A stretch of 64,000 nucleotides of DNA from Microbacterium sp. SORGH_AS_0862 (GTDB taxonomy: Bacteria; Actinomycetota; Actinomycetes; Actinomycetales; Microbacteriaceae), in contig NZ_JAUTAY010000001.1 in assembly GCF_030818795.1 (NCBI RefSeq), positions 744,001 through 808,000 on the forward strand, written 5' to 3'. A program made the position numbers and the translations under genes. Below the pieces are notes generated by a model that worked only from the letters and a program-made list of their open reading frames with translations, did no database searches and had not been told where the DNA came from. Positions 12,921 to 20,123 of this stretch are shown in pieces (within the stretch, counting starts at the first letter, position 1; each line of letters begins with the position of its first letter).

Positions 12921-14732
12921 TCACACGAGCGAGTCGCGCCAGGCGGCGTGCAGGCGCGCGAACGTGCCGGTGCCGCCGATGAGCGCCTCGGGCGCGTCGT
13001 CCTCGACGATGCGCCCGTGCTCCATGACGAGCACGCGATCCGCGATCGCGACCGTCGAGAGGCGGTGGGCGATGATGATGGCCGTGCGATCCGCGAGCAG
13101 CGTCCCGAGAGCCGACTGGATCTGACGCTCGCTCGGGATGTCGAGCGAGGCGGTCGCCTCGTCGAGGATCAGCACCGCCGGGTTCGCCAGGAAGGCGCGC
13201 GCGAACGAGATCAACTGGCGCTGTCCCGCCGACACACGGCCGCCGCGCTTGTTCACGTCCGTGTCGTAACCGTCGGGGAGTGCCTCGATGAACGCGTGTG
13301 CACCGACGGCCATCGCCGCATCCCGCACCTCGTCGAGGGTCGCGTCCGGCTTCCCCAGCGCGATGTTGTCGGCGACCGTTCCGCTGAACAGGTACGCCTC
13401 CTGCGTCACCATGACGATCGCGCGGCGCAGATCGGCCGAACCGAGCGTCCGCAGGTCCACGCCGTCGAGCGTCACGGATCCGCGGGTCGGGTCGTAGAAG
13501 CGGGAGACGAGTTTGGCCAGCGTCGACTTGCCCGCCCCCGTCGTGCCGACCAGGGCGATCGTCTGACCCGCCGGAACGTCCAGCGAGAAGTCGGGCAACA
13601 CGACGCGCCCGTCGCCGTAACCGAACGCCACGTCGTCGAAACGGATGGCGCCGCGCGGGCGCTCCAGTGCCACGGGATGCGCGGGCTCGGGAACCGTGGG
13701 CTCCTCCTCCAGCACGCCCGACACCTTCTCCAGTGCCGCTGCGGCCGACTGGTAGGAGTTCAGGAACATCGCCACCTCCTGCAGCGGCGAGAAGAAGTTG
13801 CGCACGTACAGCACGGCGGCCAGCAGCACCCCGATCTCCAGCGCTCCGCCGGCGACACGGATGCCGCCCAGGAGCAGCACCGCACCGAGACTCAGTGTCG
13901 AGATCGCCATCAGCCCGGGCTCGAACGTGCCGAACAGCCGGATGGAGCGCATGTTCACGTCGCGGTACTGCTCGCTCAGCTCGCCGAACTCGACGTCGCC
14001 GCGCTTCTCCTTGCGGAACGCCTTGACCGCGCGGATGCCGGTCATCGTCTCCACGAAATGCACGATGACCTTCGCGCTGATCACGCGCGACTCTCGGTAG
14101 ACCATCTGCGAGCGGCGGTAGAACCAGCGCATGAGCAGGCCGAGCGGGATGCCCATGACGATGAGCACGACCCCGCTCTGCCAGTCCAGCAGCAGCAGGG
14201 CGATGAGCGTGAAGGCACCGAACAGCACGCCCGAGACGAGCTCGTTGAGGCCGCCGTCGAGGAGCTCCCGGATCGTGTCGAGGTCGCTCGTCTGGCGGGA
14301 GATGATGCGTCCCGAGGTGTACGACTCGTGGAACTCGAGGCTCAGCCGCTGGGTGTGGCGGAAGATCCGGGTGCGCAGGTCGAGCATGACCGCCTGCGTG
14401 AGGCGTGCCGCGACCACCGCGTACCACCCGATGAGGGCGGCACCCAGCAGCCCGGATGCGAGATAGACGGCCACCACGCCGATCGTGGGCAGCCAGTCCA
14501 GCTCGTTCAGCACCGCCGGCAGCGCGTTGTCGATACCGAATGCGATCAGCGCCGGACCGACCACCCTCAGCGCCGTCGAGACGACGAGCACGACGGCGGC
14601 GAGGATGAGCTTGCCGCGCAGCGGAGCGATGAGTGAACCGAGCAGTCGCATCGAGCGGCGCCGGATCTCCCGGCTCTCGGCGCGGGTGTAGTCGGAGCGG
14701 TCTTCGCCGCTGGTTCCCGTGACGGTACTCAT
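12921..14732 (-). CDS. ABC exporter half-transporter, catalytic-site subunit
   Basis: Second subunit of a heterodimeric type-I ABC exporter (603 residues): six-helix membrane domain (about 30-320) then an ATPase. Walker A is GTTGAGKST, the Walker B end is [12 protein letters not shown] with the catalytic Glu, and the H-loop is IIAHRLSTV. The signature is VSAGQ instead of LSGGQ. The ATG overlaps the stop of the upstream half-transporter (ATGA, 14729-14732) and GGAGGAGG precedes it, so the two are co-translated. Compare the degenerate Walker B of the partner: together these give one consensus and one degenerate ATP site, as in BmrCD and TM287/288. Probable multidrug or lipid exporter. Confidence 0.93.
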
Positions 14733-16531
14733 CGCACCTCCTCCTTCTCGTCCAGACTCGAGATCACGTGCCGGTAGTGCGCCGAGGAACGCATCAGCTC
14801 GCTGTGCGTTCCCACCGCGGTGACGCGCCCGTCTTCCAGGAGAGCGACGCGATCCGCGAGGGCCACGGTCGACGGCCGATGCGCGACGATGAGGGCGGTC
14901 GTGTCGGCCAGCACCCCACGCAGCCCCTCCTCCACCCGCGCCTCCGTGTCGACGTCGAGAGCCGACAGCGGGTCGTCGAGCACGAGCACCGACGGCCGCG
15001 CGGCGACCGCGCGGGCCAGGGCGAGACGCTGGCGTTGGCCTCCGGAGAGACTCAGTCCTTCCTCCCCGATGACGGTGTCGACGCCGGCGGGCAGCCGCTC
15101 GACGAACTCGGCCTGGGCGACGTCCAGCGCTTCGCGCAGCACGCGCTCGCCCTCCGGCGAGGCCGCATCCAGGTCGTCGCGTCCGAGCAGCACGTTCTCG
15201 CGCACCGAGGAGGAGAAGAGCGTCGCCTCCTCGAACGCCATCGAGATGTGCGTGCGCAGCTCGGCCAGGGTGAGATCCCTCACATCGACGCCGTCCAGCG
15301 TGACGCGCCCGCCGGTCACGTCGTACAGGCGGGTGGGCAGGGTCGTCAGCGTCGTCTTGCCCGAACCGGTGAGGCCCACGAGCGCCATCGTCTCCCCCGG
15401 CTCCAGGGCGAGATCGATCCCGTCCAGCAGATCGCGCTGCGCGTCCGGCGCGTCCTGGTAGCGGAAGTGCACGTTCTCGAACACGAGCCGGCCCCGGGGG
15501 TTCTCGATCGAGACCGGGTCGTCCGGATCGTCGATCGTGACCTGCTCGTCGAACACCTCGAACACGCGGTCGGTGGCGGTGCGCGCATCCAGGAGGAACG
15601 AGAAGAGGAAGCCGATCGACTCCATGGGCCAGCGCAGCACCGTCGCCATCGCGAAGAAGGCGAACAACTGGGCGACCGAGAGCTGGCCGAGCTGAGCGAG
15701 CACAATCCCCGCCGCCAGACACAGCGCGAAGGCGATCTCGGGCAGCAGGACCAGCCAGAACCAGATCAGGCCGATGGCCGTGGCCTTGCGCAGCTCCGTC
15801 TGGCGCAGCGTCTCGGCCTGGCGCGCGAACTTCGCGAGAGCGTGGGATCCGCGCCCGAACGCCTTCAGGACGCGGATGCCGTGCACGCTCTCCTCGACGG
15901 CGGTCGCGAGATCGCCCGCCTGGTCCTGGCTCTGGCGGGCGAGCACCCCGTATTGCTTCTCGAAGCGATACCCGGCGTACCAGAGGGGAGCCGAACACAG
16001 CAGGAAGATCGTGCCGAGCACCCAGTGCCACTGGAACAGCAGCACCGACCCCAGCGCGATCGTCAGCACGTTGACGACGAGCAGGATGACGCCGAAGGCG
16101 AGCCAGCGTCGGATGAGGCTGATGTCCTGCATCATGCGGCTGAGCAGCTGACCGGACTGCCACCGGTCGTGGAACGCGACGGGGAGTCGTTGCAGGCGCG
16201 CGGCGAAGCCGGTGCGCAAGGCGTACTCGACCCTGGTCGAAGGCGCGAGCACGAACCAGCGCCGACCCCAGACGAGAGCGGCCTCGGCGAGCCCGAGCCC
16301 GATGACGGCGAGCGTGCCCCAGAGGATCTGCGTCGGATCGGCGGAGGCGATCGGCCCCGCGACGACGCCCTCGAGCACGAGCGGGATCATCAGGGCGACG
16401 ACGCTGGCGGCGAGCGCGCTGACGGCGCCGAGCACGAGCGGACGCAGCACAGGGCGCACGAACGGCAGGAGCCGCGCGAGGGCGCGAAGCGTGGACGGTT
16501 CGGTGGACGAACGAGAAGGTGTGGAACTCAT
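14729..16531 (-). CDS. ABC exporter half-transporter, degenerate-site subunit
   Basis: First subunit (600 residues) of the heterodimeric exporter. Membrane domain about 25-310, ATPase with Walker [10 protein letters not shown], signature [10 protein letters not shown] and H-loop IVAHRPSTV. Walker B ends [12 protein letters not shown]: the catalytic Glu is replaced by Asp, the hallmark of the non-hydrolysing site in heterodimeric exporters. The ATG at 16531 (residues MSSTPSRSS) is chosen because GAGG lies upstream; the open frame extends further to 16687 but without a ribosome site. A 21-codon ORF (16641-16706) precedes it by 109 bases and probably controls expression. Confidence 0.93.
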
Positions 16532-16640
16532 GATCCTCGAGGAGAGCGTGCGGCGGCGACGCCGCTGAAGGGTGAACTCGCACGCAGAGGTGCGGCGGCT
16601 CGGAGAGGGAGAGGGCCGCGTGGAAGCGGCGGAGCGGTGG

Positions 16641-16706
16641 CTACGCGGAGCGCGCGGGCACCGCGAGGACGGCGGGGATTTCCGCAATGGCGAATGCCTG
16701 AGTCAT
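16641..16706 (-). CDS. 21-residue upstream ORF (candidate leader peptide) of ABC exporter
   Basis: ATG at 16706 is preceded by GAGGAGGACGAT, one of the best ribosome sites in the window. The frame encodes [13 protein letters not shown] followed by LAVPARSA and ends at TAG 16641. The end of the ORF can form a small stem (GCGGTG with CACCGC just after the stop), and the next 109 bases up to the exporter start contain further stems (GCGTGCG with CGCACGC). A good promoter lies 54 bases upstream. The arrangement recalls bmrB, the leader peptide that controls the heterodimeric exporter bmrCD in B. subtilis through ribosome stalling. Translation and function are inferred. Confidence 0.55.
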
Positions 16707-16759
16707 ATCGTCCTCCTCGAGTGCACGGATGCCGCGGCGAGTGCGCGCGACAGCCCTCC

Positions 16760-16788
16760 AGACTATGCTGTGTGTTCGCTGAGTGCAA
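16760..16788 (-). promoter_or_regulatory. Promoter of the leader-ABC exporter operon
   Basis: On the minus strand TTGCAC (16783-16788) and TAGTCT (16760-16765) are separated by 17 bases. This gives a transcript start near 16752 and an untranslated leader of about 45 bases before the small upstream ORF. Confidence 0.6.
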
Positions 16789-16823
16789 CGATCAGTTCCG
16801 CGCGGGCATTCCCGCGCGTGGGG

Positions 16824-17315
16824 TCAAGAGGCTTCGCGGGCGAGCAGGCTGCGCTTGACCTCGACGCCCCACGCGAAGCCGCCCATCGCGCCGCCGGTGC
16901 GGAGCACGCGGTGGCACGGCACGAAAAGGGCCGGTGCGTTGCGCGCGCAGACGGATGCGGCGGCGCGCACCGCGCGAGGACTTCCCAACGCTGCGGCGAA
17001 CTCCGCGTACGTGAGGGGCTGGCCCGGCTCGATGCGGCGCAGCATCCGCCAGCCCGCGAGCTGTCCGGCGGTGCCCGTCTGGTGCACCTCGACCTCGTCG
17101 ATGGCTCGCACGTCGCCGCCGTAGTAGGCGGCGACCGCATCCAGGGCGTCGACCGCGCCCTCGACGATCTCGGCGGGTCGATCCGCCGCACGCACGCGGG
17201 CGATGATGACCTCGTGGTCGGCGCTCCAGCCGGAGGCGAGGACGCGCTGCCGATCGTCGACGAGCGCGGTGAAGGCTCCGTCAGGGGTGGCGATGGTGGC
17301 GATGTGCGCGGTCAT
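16824..17315 (-). CDS. ogt: Methylated-DNA--protein-cysteine methyltransferase
   Basis: Suicide repair protein that takes the alkyl group from O6-alkylguanine (and O4-alkylthymine) onto its own cysteine. 163 residues, the usual length. The acceptor site [11 protein letters not shown] and the helix-turn-helix region with the [16 protein letters not shown] segment (the RA of this motif flips the base) are intact. Start ATG 17315 overlaps the stop of the Ada-AlkA gene (ATGA, 17312-17315), so the two repair genes form a coupled operon; the open frame beyond 17315 is out-of-frame Ada-AlkA sequence. Confidence 0.95.
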
Positions 17316-18817
17316 GCGATGCGGCTCTCGTTCGGGAGGCGGGCGGGACGGGGGATCTGCGCGGGCACGCCGGCGACGGCGGCCCAAAGGTGCGCGGTGA
17401 GGTAGCTGCGCCAGGGTGCGGCGCGGACGGACCACGCGGTCAGGGCACGGGGCTCCGCGGGGAGCCCGAGCCGGGCGGCGCCGGTGCGCACGGCGACGTC
17501 ACCGGGAAGGAACACGTCGGGATCGCCCGTGACCCGCATCCGCACGTAGTCCGCGGTCCACGGTCCGATCCCGGGCATCGCGAGCAGGGCCGCGCGCTGA
17601 TCGTGGGCGTCGCCGCCGGCGTCGAGCACCAGCGAGCCGTCGGCGAGCGCCGCGGCGGCACCGACGATGGCGCGGGTGCGGGCGGCGGGGCCGCGCAGCA
17701 CCTCTGCGCCGCGCTCGGCGATCGCCGCCATGGTCGGGAAGAGCAGGTCGGTGCCTTCGTGGGCGGGCACCCGCTCCCCCAGGTGCTGCGCGAGAGCGGC
17801 GAGGGCCGTGCGCGCCGCGGCGACGGTGATCTGCTGGCCCACCATCGCACGGATGAGCATCTCGTGCGGGTCCGCGGCGCCGGGGACGCGGATGCCGGGA
17901 AGCGCGGCGACACGCTCGGCAAGCTCCGGGTGGGCTGCGAGCGCCTGATCGACGGCGAGCGGATCCGCATCCAGATCGAACAGCCGACGCACCCGCGTGA
18001 CCAGCTGCGGCAGATCTGCGAGCTGCGACAGGCGGGCGCGCAAGCGGAGCGCGTCGCCGTCGCGGCGCACCTCGAACCACGCGGAGCCGCCGGCCAGGCG
18101 CAGGGTGCGCGCGAAGGTCGTCGTCGTGACGGTCTCCACGCCCGGCAGCGCGCGGGCCGTCATCCACGCGAAGATGCCGTCGTCGTCGATCGGACGCCGG
18201 TGCGCGAGGAGCAGATCGATCTCACCGGGAGTCGCACGGTTCTCGGATCTCCGCCGCGCGCGCAGCGCGAGCGGCGTCATCCCGAACACCTCGCGGACGG
18301 TGTCGTTGAACTGCCGCACACTCGCGAAGCCCGCGGAGAAGGCGACGTCTGCGGCAGGGAGGTCCGTGCCGACGAGGAGCATCCGCGCCGTGTGGGCGCG
18401 GTGGGCCCGCGCGAGTGCGAGCGGTGACGCGCCGAGCTCGGCGGTGAGGATGCGGCCGAGCTGCCGCGACGAGTAGCCGAGCCGGCGGGCGAGCCCCGGC
18501 ACGCCCTCGCGCTCGACCACGCCGTCGGCGATGAGACGCATGGCGCGCCCGGCGACGTCGCCGCGGAGGTCCCACTCCGGCGAGCCGGGCGCAGCCTCGG
18601 GCAGACAGCGCTTGCAGGCGCGGTAGCCCGCCTCGTGCGCGGCGGCGCTCGTGGGATAGAACGTGACGTTCTCGGCGCGGGGTGTGCGCGCGGGGCAACT
18701 GGGGCGGCAGTAGATGCCGGTGGTGTGCACCGCGGTGACGAACTGGCCGTCGAAGCGCGCGTCCCGCGCGTCGATCGCACGGTAGCGCTCGTCGAAGGTC
18801 ATCGCGGAGATGGGCAC
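17312..18817 (-). CDS. Ada-type regulator fused to AlkA 3-methyladenine DNA glycosylase
   Basis: 501-residue fusion for the adaptive response to alkylation. Residues 1-80 are the Ada zinc domain with Cys37, Cys41, Cys68 and Cys71 (GIYCRPSC and ACKRC); Cys37 is the methylphosphotriester acceptor. Residues about 85-185 are an AraC helix-turn-helix region. Residues about 195-490 are AlkA: N-terminal AlkA fold, helix-hairpin-helix [11 protein letters not shown], then the catalytic Asp in [11 protein letters not shown]. Alkylated DNA phosphate would turn the protein into an activator of its own operon. GTG 18817 follows a CAGGCT box by 6 bases; ATG 18802 is an alternative start. The O6-methylguanine function is supplied by the coupled ogt gene. 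Confidence 0.93.
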
Positions 18818-19145: not shown

Positions 19146-20123
19146 TTGGTCCACCGTAATGCGCGGCTCACTGTCGCGGGTCGTCTGATTCTCGTGCGCC
19201 GGGTTCTCGGCGGACGTCCCGTCTCGCACGTTGCCAAGGAGATGGGCGTCTCGCGTCAGTGCGCTCATCGCTGGCTGGCCCGCTACCGCGCTGCGGGCGA
19301 AGCAGGGCTGTCCGATCGGTCTTCGCGTCCGGTGTCGTCTCCGACGGCGACTGCCGCCGCGACAGCAGCCGCCGTCGTTGAGCTGCGCTCGCGTGAGCGG
19401 CTCGGGCGCGACGACATCGCCCGCGCTTGCGGGGCCAGCCCGCGCACCGTTTCCCGGCTGATCGCGAAGGCGGGGCTGCCGGCGCTGCACGAGCTGGATC
19501 CGGTCACCGGCATCGCGTTGCGCGCGTCACGGCGCACCCAGGTCCGCTACGAGCGTGACGCCCCAGGGGATCTGATCCACATCGATGTGAAGAAGCTCGG
19601 CCGCATCCCCGAAGGCGGCGGCTGGCGCGTCCAAGGCCCCGCCACGATCGACCATCACAGCGGTCGGGACCGGAAGGTCAGGCTTGGCTTTGACTACGTC
19701 CATGTCGCCGTCGACGACCACTCCCGCCTCGCGTTCGCGCAGATCCTGCCGGACGAGAAGGGCACCACCTGCGCAGCGTTCCTCGCCGCCGCGACCGAGT
19801 TCTTCACCCGTCACGGGATCCACATCCGTGAGGTCATGACCGACAACGCCAAGAACTACACCGTCTCGGCCGCGTTCCAAGGCCAGCTGTCCCTCCTCAA
19901 CGCGAGGCACATCACCACCAAGCCGCACTGCCCCTGGCAGAACGGCAAAGCCGAACGATTCAACCGGACCATGCAGGAACACTGGGCCTACCGGGCCCCC
20001 TACGTCTCCAACCAGCACCGCTCCGAAGCGCTCGCGCCCTGGCTCGAGCACTACAACTACGCTCGAGCACACACCGCCTGCGGCGGCCAACCCCCAATCA
20101 GCCGGGTGTCACCAACCTCATGA
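19146..20123 (+). CDS. IS481-family transposase
   Basis: DDE transposase of 325 residues. The N-terminal helix-turn-helix begins MVHRNARLTVAGR with GVSRQCAHRWLARYR as recognition helix. The catalytic core shows the three acidic residues in LIHIDVKKLG, EVMTDNAKNY and NGKAERFNRT. Start TTG 19146 gives the family's standard N-terminus and has GGAGG 7 bases upstream within the hairpin. The frame is intact with no frameshift. The stop lies in the right terminal repeat. Confidence 0.95.
   Translation: MVHRNARLTVAGRLILVRRVLGGRPVSHVAKEMGVSRQCAHRWLARYRAAGEAGLSDRSSRPVSSPTATAAATAAAVVELRSRERLGRDDIARACGASPRTVSRLIAKAGLPALHELDPVTGIALRASRRTQVRYERDAPGDLIHIDVKKLGRIPEGGGWRVQGPATIDHHSGRDRKVRLGFDYVHVAVDDHSRLAFAQILPDEKGTTCAAFLAAATEFFTRHGIHIREVMTDNAKNYTVSAAFQGQLSLLNARHITTKPHCPWQNGKAERFNRTMQEHWAYRAPYVSNQHRSEALAPWLEHYNYARAHTACGGQPPISRVSPTS

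Follow-up and report, generated by a model that had tools for sequence, protein, structure and literature searches.

A conserved upstream ORF ahead of a heterodimeric ABC exporter in Microbacteriaceae, and its likely regulatory role

Can a reading frame of 21 codons, placed between a promoter and the genes of an ABC exporter, tie the expression of that exporter to translation in an actinobacterium? The question is raised by a locus in Microbacterium sp. SORGH_AS_0862 (GCF_030818795.1), whose genome is a single contig of 3.5 Mb. The stretch analysed here, referred to as the window, comprises 64,000 nt of NZ_JAUTAY010000001.1 (744,001-808,000, forward strand). An original prediction, made from the sequence of the window, had proposed that the exporter is controlled in the manner of Bacillus subtilis bmrCD, where the leader peptide BmrB responds to drug-stalled ribosomes.

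The exporter locus

The features of the locus are collected in Table 1. The leader ORF can be read directly from the sequence, and its ribosome site, singled out beforehand as one of the best, is indeed strong: it belongs to one of eight ATGs in the 64-kb window, both strands included, that have GGAGGA or AGGAGG at Shine-Dalgarno (SD) distance, with five bases separating GGAGG from the ATG. The exporter ATG lies 109 bases past the leader stop, at 16531, in a frame different from that of the leader. Stem-forming sequence had been noted around and after the leader stop; the stems are real, since the region 16760-16529 folds better than shuffled sequences (z -3.18), but nothing resembling a terminator is found among them.

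Table 1. Features of the leader-exporter locus (window coordinates, except the last row)
Feature	Position	Strand	Basis or remark
Promoter	16749..16788	-	TTGCAC 16788-16783, 17 bases, TAGTCT 16765-16760, then conserved GGAGGGCTGTC
Transcription start	near 16753	-	predicted
Leader SD, GAGGAGGA	16711..16718	-	read directly
Leader ORF, 21 codons, stop TAG	16641..16706	-	read directly; relatives
CGTCCTC, leader codons 12-14, complement of the leader's own SD	16665..16671	-	complement enriched among leaders
C-rich untranslated spacer with hairpins, 109 bases	16532..16640	-	base composition; no intrinsic terminator
Heterodimeric ABC exporter, first subunit (Walker-B LDD, degenerate site)	14729..16531	-	domains and motifs
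Heterodimeric ABC exporter, second subunit	12921..14732	-	domains and motifs; start overlaps the first gene's stop
Two-part hairpin of the L005-type group, CGGATGC-CGGACTC...GAGTCCG-CTCTC-GCATCCG	e.g., L006:2893-3003		between leader stop and exporter start

The exporter pair is heterodimeric, as had been claimed. Both subunits carry ABC_membrane and ABC_tran domains and are 32% identical to each other, and their genes overlap by ATGA. Subunit 1 has the motifs LDD and LSGGQ, and subunit 2 has LDE and SAGQ; these are half-transporters, one with an altered Walker-B glutamate and the other with an altered signature, which leaves one degenerate ATP site. A single degenerate site is usual in heterodimeric ABC exporters. 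The closest named relative is 'Microbacteriaceae bacterium PS02066' (98% at the protein level), and nearly all other named relatives are from Microbacterium. Surveyed with cut-offs that were loosened from the genus to the family and then to the order, the exporter subunit was present in 292 of 295 congeners, in 129 of 150 family genomes (74 of 85 genera), and in 49 of the 119 genomes examined across the order, eight of these 49 being from the family. Such near-universal presence in the genus is as compatible with a housekeeping function as with the efflux of drugs.

The neighbourhood contains two further items. Upstream of the exporter on the same strand (16824-18817) lies an alkylation-repair pair, comprised of an O6-methylguanine methyltransferase and an Ada (metal-binding and AraC-type HTH)/AlkA protein, and an IS481-type transposase ORF is encoded at 19146-20123 on the plus strand.

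Distribution of the leader and its promoter

The genus survey was assembled from 42 named records, 30 loci (including that of the window) and 100 further stretches, all brought to one orientation (L077, L165 and L171 were reversed by hand). Dropping two loci with identical upstream regions reduced the 172 genus loci to 170 regions, among them that of the window (L047) and those of some species that seem to be represented twice, by a named and an unnamed record (L002/L135, L004/L089). A locus that is not an orthologue (L045) and two where the contig starts inside the gene (L027, L037) were left out; L196, from the same genus and with a leader, was counted neither with the genus nor with other genera, and L225-L227 were not used. 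Since 130 of the 292 genus genomes with the gene were sampled, mostly best-scoring first and with some listed ones skipped, distant congeners are under-represented.

An ATG ORF preceded by GGAGGA or AGGAGG occurs in 144 of the 170 genus upstream regions, compared with two of 850 block shuffles and six of 170 reverse strands. These controls belong to the strict score; a looser one finds an ORF of 18-35 codons in 152 of the 170. The genus sequences are related (their leaders group into 72 clusters when the first 54 bases are compared at 80% identity), and these counts are thus not independent. The family survey was less strict, accepting GGAGG, AAGGAG or GAGGAG (146 of 170 when applied to the genus), and it recovered the ORF in 24 of 30 loci from other genera of the family, against one of 30 reverse strands and six of 600 shuffles; the 30 were taken from 127 genomes with the gene, as the 28 best-scoring plus L228 and L229. 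By the same definition the ORF was found in none of 22 loci from other families of the order (one of 22 reverse strands), these being the 22 best-scoring of 41 genomes with the gene; in L247, from another family, a short ORF follows a weaker SD (AGGAG) and does not pass the threshold. A short SD-led ORF is thus kept in place before orthologous genes beyond chance. As the leader is common in the family and was found in 0/22 loci outside it, while the exporter is more widespread, the leader looks like a Microbacteriaceae addition to an older exporter. Random loss of the leader frame was not seen in orthologous loci across the family, in a search that asked for intact ORFs, so that decayed leaders would count as absent.

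The promoter was described originally as TTGCAC, 17 bases and TAGTCT. These bases are present as described, and although a generic sigma-70 scan called no promoter at the leader locus, the relatives back it. The block TANNNT-GGAGGGCTGTC, taken in a degenerate form of GGAGGGCTGTC and with no more than two mismatches, is found in 171 of 172 genus loci, with TTG 17 or 18 bases ahead of it in 167 of the 172. The spacing is 18 bases in 150 loci and 17 in the window. Together, the conserved block and the TTG at this distance support the promoter. In other genera of the family the block is present in 22 of 30 loci (0/30 for the reversed sequence), 17 of the 30 having both leader and block, and it occurs in none of the 22 loci of other families.

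Several observations concern the promoter region itself. Its conservation is striking and extends across the spacer and, with GGAGGGCTG, beyond the -10 (consensus by eye TTGCatTCAGcgaaCtCtCAGGtaTAGGCTGGAGGGCTGTCGCG). The part from the -10 to GGCTG is retained in leaderless loci too, and is single-copy in its own genome. A regulon operator was considered for the block and rejected: in the window's own genome the exporter site is the sole perfect match, and the counts with mismatches do not exceed those of a backward control (3+6 vs 7+8; 63+64 vs 66+62). A possible hairpin at the transcript 5' end (16754-16720 and relatives) was seen by eye in L110 and L118, its 5' arm, GGGCUGUCGCG, being nearly constant and its 3' arm variable; hairpins of at least eight pairs with the GGGCUGUCGCG arm occur in 21% of cases, against 7% after shuffling (n=154), a mild excess.

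Eighteen genus loci lack the leader. In all 18 the promoter block (no more than two mismatches) is 27-133 bases from the exporter, whereas in leader loci the distance is at least 183 bases. Pairwise alignment of L020 with L019 shows leader and SD absent as one block, with the promoter and the exporter-proximal spacer remaining; L150 differs in the same way from L140 and L152, and the L059/L052 comparison is too diverged to read. The leader was probably lost rather than gained in these loci, a direction indicated by its spread in the family. No locus with a broken leader occurs among those compared, an intact ORF being the search condition. In three leaderless loci (L034, L036, L043) the exporter comes after a gene with what we take to be a purH-like C-terminus. 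An inverted repeat, CAGCCCTCCAG ... CTGGAGGGCTG, is present in L036 and L043, where its right arm is formed by the promoter block and its loop contains the -10; L034 has a variant of it.

Leader peptide, RNA structure and competing explanations

Leader peptides vary by clade (window's own, MTTIATARIAALGSTPARPLS, MYQAAIAAKTAFVLRIAGPKRLRIQG-like, MSTAIVITKP- and MDQIDAPVAPAAAPS- elsewhere). Codon conservation with silent changes, proposed originally as a check, was not found: over 44 disjoint leader pairs of equal length and at least 72% identity, the in-frame pN/pS is 1.00, the two shifted frames give 0.99 and 0.81, and purifying selection on the peptide is not detected. Thus, it is the SD-led ORF that is conserved, and the peptide is not detectably so. 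Stops within codons 2-17 are rare in every frame (0, 10 and 3 of 152), so that an open leader frame proves little. Among 35 close pairs, frame-breaking indels per base are fewer in the leader (0.003) than in the spacer (0.014); the contrast of triplet and non-triplet indels between leader and spacer (p 0.037) is partly forced, because the length of an ORF is always divisible by three. Across five genomes of the window's species complex (L050 being omitted as the same as L001), 5 of 66 leader positions vary compared with 31 of 109 spacer positions (p 0.0009).

Four of these five variable positions are in codons 9-10 (16682-16677; E/V, I/H), a place that Lys-Pro or Lys-Thr occupies in many other leaders. 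Lysine is found at codon 9 in 54 of 152 leaders, the window having glutamate, and within these 54 the third codon positions are the least variable. A +X+ motif, treated in the part of PMC8298421 that was available, is present in 51 of 141 distinct peptides against 35.2 (sd 4.7) in shuffled ones, the sequences being related; it is absent from the window's peptide.

A second regularity is found at the RNA level. In 80 of 152 leaders the SD has a perfect complement of at least 6 nt in codons 9-18, mostly 12-15, where about 21 would be expected from codon shuffles, and 47 of the 80 complements begin at nt +35 or +37. The window has GAGGACG (16715-16709) matched by CGTCCTC (RNA GAGGACG/CGUCCUC), and the two are paired in the predicted fold. 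Folding of 87 representatives, by a generic method without pseudoknots, gives the leader SD a mean unpaired probability of 0.233, to which a ribosome masked at codon 9 adds 0.043 (p 0.004); in the window the SD barely opens (0.10 to 0.12). A self-complementary leader SD is a testable design, and one not met in the consulted passages on known leaders.

The spacer is rich in C. Its first 97 bases in the window hold 50 C, 23 G, 16 T and 8 A, and the median C/G of genus spacers is 1.88; other genera have 1.65, leaderless 5' regions 1.39, orthologues outside the family 1.27 and the sequence upstream of the promoter 0.97. Spacers of this composition might lend themselves to Rho loading, as PMC12121999 lists a high C:G ratio among rut features; the evidence is weak, and C-richness may be ordinary for 5' UTRs. 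An Rfam search of 16000-17400 gave no match up to E 5. A common structure predicted from three clade alignments was rejected, two-sided changes being found in only 6/37, 1/62 and 1/10 of the predicted pairs. The L005-type group has the two-part hairpin of Table 1: in 21 relatives, compensatory changes affect 4 of 14 pairs (8 cells), with 0/500 shuffles as high, and 99.0% of cells are paired, further pair types not being above shuffles. This suggests that spacer structure matters in at least one clade. A shorter hairpin, GGATGCC/GGCATCC, is retained in the leaderless L020.

How, then, might the leader act? With transcription attenuation of the BmrB type, a drug-stalled leader ribosome would shift the RNA ahead of the exporter from an intrinsic terminator towards an antiterminator. 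Promoter, leader and heterodimeric exporter are laid out alike in the two systems, bmrCD is induced by lincomycin, erythromycin and chloramphenicol according to the passages available from PMC4191407, and the spacers have hairpins, including the one with compensatory changes. However, that hairpin was examined in one group only, and it follows the leader stop and has no U run, while terminator-like sites between codon 12 and exporter position +40 are no commoner than by chance (found in 4 of 152 loci and 6 times after shuffling), none being found in the window's leader or spacer. The layout proposed originally stands, and a regulatory uORF is likely, but with terminators at chance, no freeing of the exporter ribosome binding site (RBS) and a pN/pS of 1.00, attenuation of the BmrB type is improbable here. 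Translational attenuation as in erm genes would instead have a ribosome stalled by a drug at about codon 8-10 unmask the exporter ribosome site, with the A/I/V-rich N-terminal stretch serving as a macrolide-arrest sequence like that of ErmAL1 (IAVV) or ErmCL (IFVIS). The leader N-terminus resembles such arrest peptides, which offers a lead: PMC12698558 gives IAVV as the motif that stalls ribosomes on ErmAL1, PMC13410324 gives MGIFSIFVIS for ErmCL, the frequent lysine at codon 9 would be in keeping with the resemblance, and in the window CTCGAGGAG (16721-16713, the leader SD) finds a full complement in CTCCTCGAG (16544-16536) ahead of the exporter. Yet the residue-by-residue register with ErmAL1 is tentative, IAVV itself occurs in only two of 152 leaders (L056, L062), and A, V and I are common in any GC-rich ORF; the absence of detectable selection on the peptide points the same way. 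The papers listed for IAVVE had unrelated titles. The exporter SD is also no more masked than with shuffled spacers (mean unpaired 0.555 native, 0.510 shuffled, p 0.03), and a mask at codon 9 does not free it (0.555 to 0.534, change -0.021, p 0.24; 0.49 to 0.25 in the window). Within the limits of generic folding, unmasking of the exporter RBS is thus not indicated by the 87 representatives. The exporter RBS was also considered as a pairing partner of leader codons 11-17 and rejected, at least 6 nt of complement being present in 8 of 152 loci where about 11 are expected from other spacer windows. An erm-like switch is consequently unlikely.

It could also be argued that translation is beside the point, and that SD, ATG and the codon 12-15 complement constitute an RNA element (a hairpin, ribosome standby or stability element) in which the ORF is incidental. 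A pN/pS of 1.00, the third positions that vary least in Lys-9 leaders and the fixed place of the SD complement would all be expected of such an element. Against it, SD and ATG are properly spaced in 144 of 170 regions with ORFs of 18-35 codons, the leader has few frame-breaking indels, and groups without the complement, such as the large L005-type group, still keep SD and ORF; we hold an incidental ORF to be doubtful. An exporter start farther upstream, which would turn the short ORF into an artefact of N-terminal extension, is hardly credible. The exporter frame does stay open as far as 16687 (TTG), but leader and exporter frames differ, the spacers of close relatives have 65 non-triplet vs 14 triplet indels (35 pairs), and AGGATC-ATG at the exporter start is common to the compared groups of relatives.

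A translation-dependent cassette and its known counterparts

The leader ORF is likely a regulatory uORF. The preferred reading, to which we assign a probability of about 0.6, is that a translated regulatory uORF sits in a promoter-leader-spacer cassette specific to Microbacteriaceae, so that expression of a core heterodimeric ABC exporter would depend on the state of translation. The leader would be translated, and ribosomes would slow or stall in its first ten or so codons in response to a ribosome-targeting compound or other translation stress. A slowed ribosome might then hold the hairpin between SD and codons 12-15 open and shift the fate of the transcript. Since the results point neither to an intrinsic terminator nor to a masked exporter RBS, the output step is more likely to be early termination, perhaps through Rho, or decay of the RNA within the C-rich untranslated spacer than classical RBS unmasking. 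A bolder version is offered tentatively. The uORF would be a self-gating switch throughout the family, its SD locked by codons 12-15 and opened by any ribosome slowed before codon 12; many translation stresses could then act through an unfixed peptide to alter Rho-type termination in the C-rich spacer, with no need of an intrinsic terminator or a masked exporter RBS.

If the preferred reading is true, uORF control of exporter pairs extends from Bacillus to a large actinobacterial family, and it suggests a way in which a near-universal exporter could be adjusted to translation stress. Well over 100 natural variants of one switch would then be available, together with natural leaderless loci. 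In keeping with the original prediction, none of the matches listed from the open-licence literature, as far as these sources could be consulted, concerns a uORF of this actinobacterial exporter type or a leader of this exporter in Microbacteriaceae (further passages came from PMC6238534 and PMC8274638).

The nearest counterpart is BmrB of bmrCD in Bacillus subtilis, likewise a leader ORF between a promoter and a heterodimeric ABC multidrug exporter. According to the available passages of PMC4191407, the intrinsic terminator lies within the BmrB coding region, together with an antiterminator, and the antibiotic response of bmrCD is demonstrated; in contrast, the Microbacteriaceae leaders have no intrinsic terminators above chance. 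The ToiL uORF of topAI in E. coli is also short, and in the part of PMC12121999 available it is proposed to be a general sensor of translation stress with Rho termination downstream, where Rho is a guess in the present case. ToiL is proposed to act through a hairpin that hides the topAI RBS and its first seven residues are conserved, whereas here no such masking is predicted and no conserved residues are seen beyond clades.

The erm leaders (ErmAL1, ErmCL, ErmDL) share the short SD-led ORF and, in ErmAL1 and ErmCL, an I/V-rich start. Their target is a methyltransferase, while here it is an exporter, sequestration of the downstream SD is not detected and the peptide is not conserved. Within the actinobacteria, attenuators of ABCF genes (are5sc, tiaA, lmrC) and of whiB7/wblC also utilise a uORF in the 5' UTR, as described in the parts of PMC12421871 and PMC13236596 available, the latter covering attenuation of whiB7 in M. 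tuberculosis. The uORF ribosome sites of are5sc and tiaA overlap an alternative hairpin, and terminators are predicted for both. The uORFs of this group control ABCF proteins or a regulator, whereas the Microbacteriaceae leader precedes a transmembrane exporter pair.
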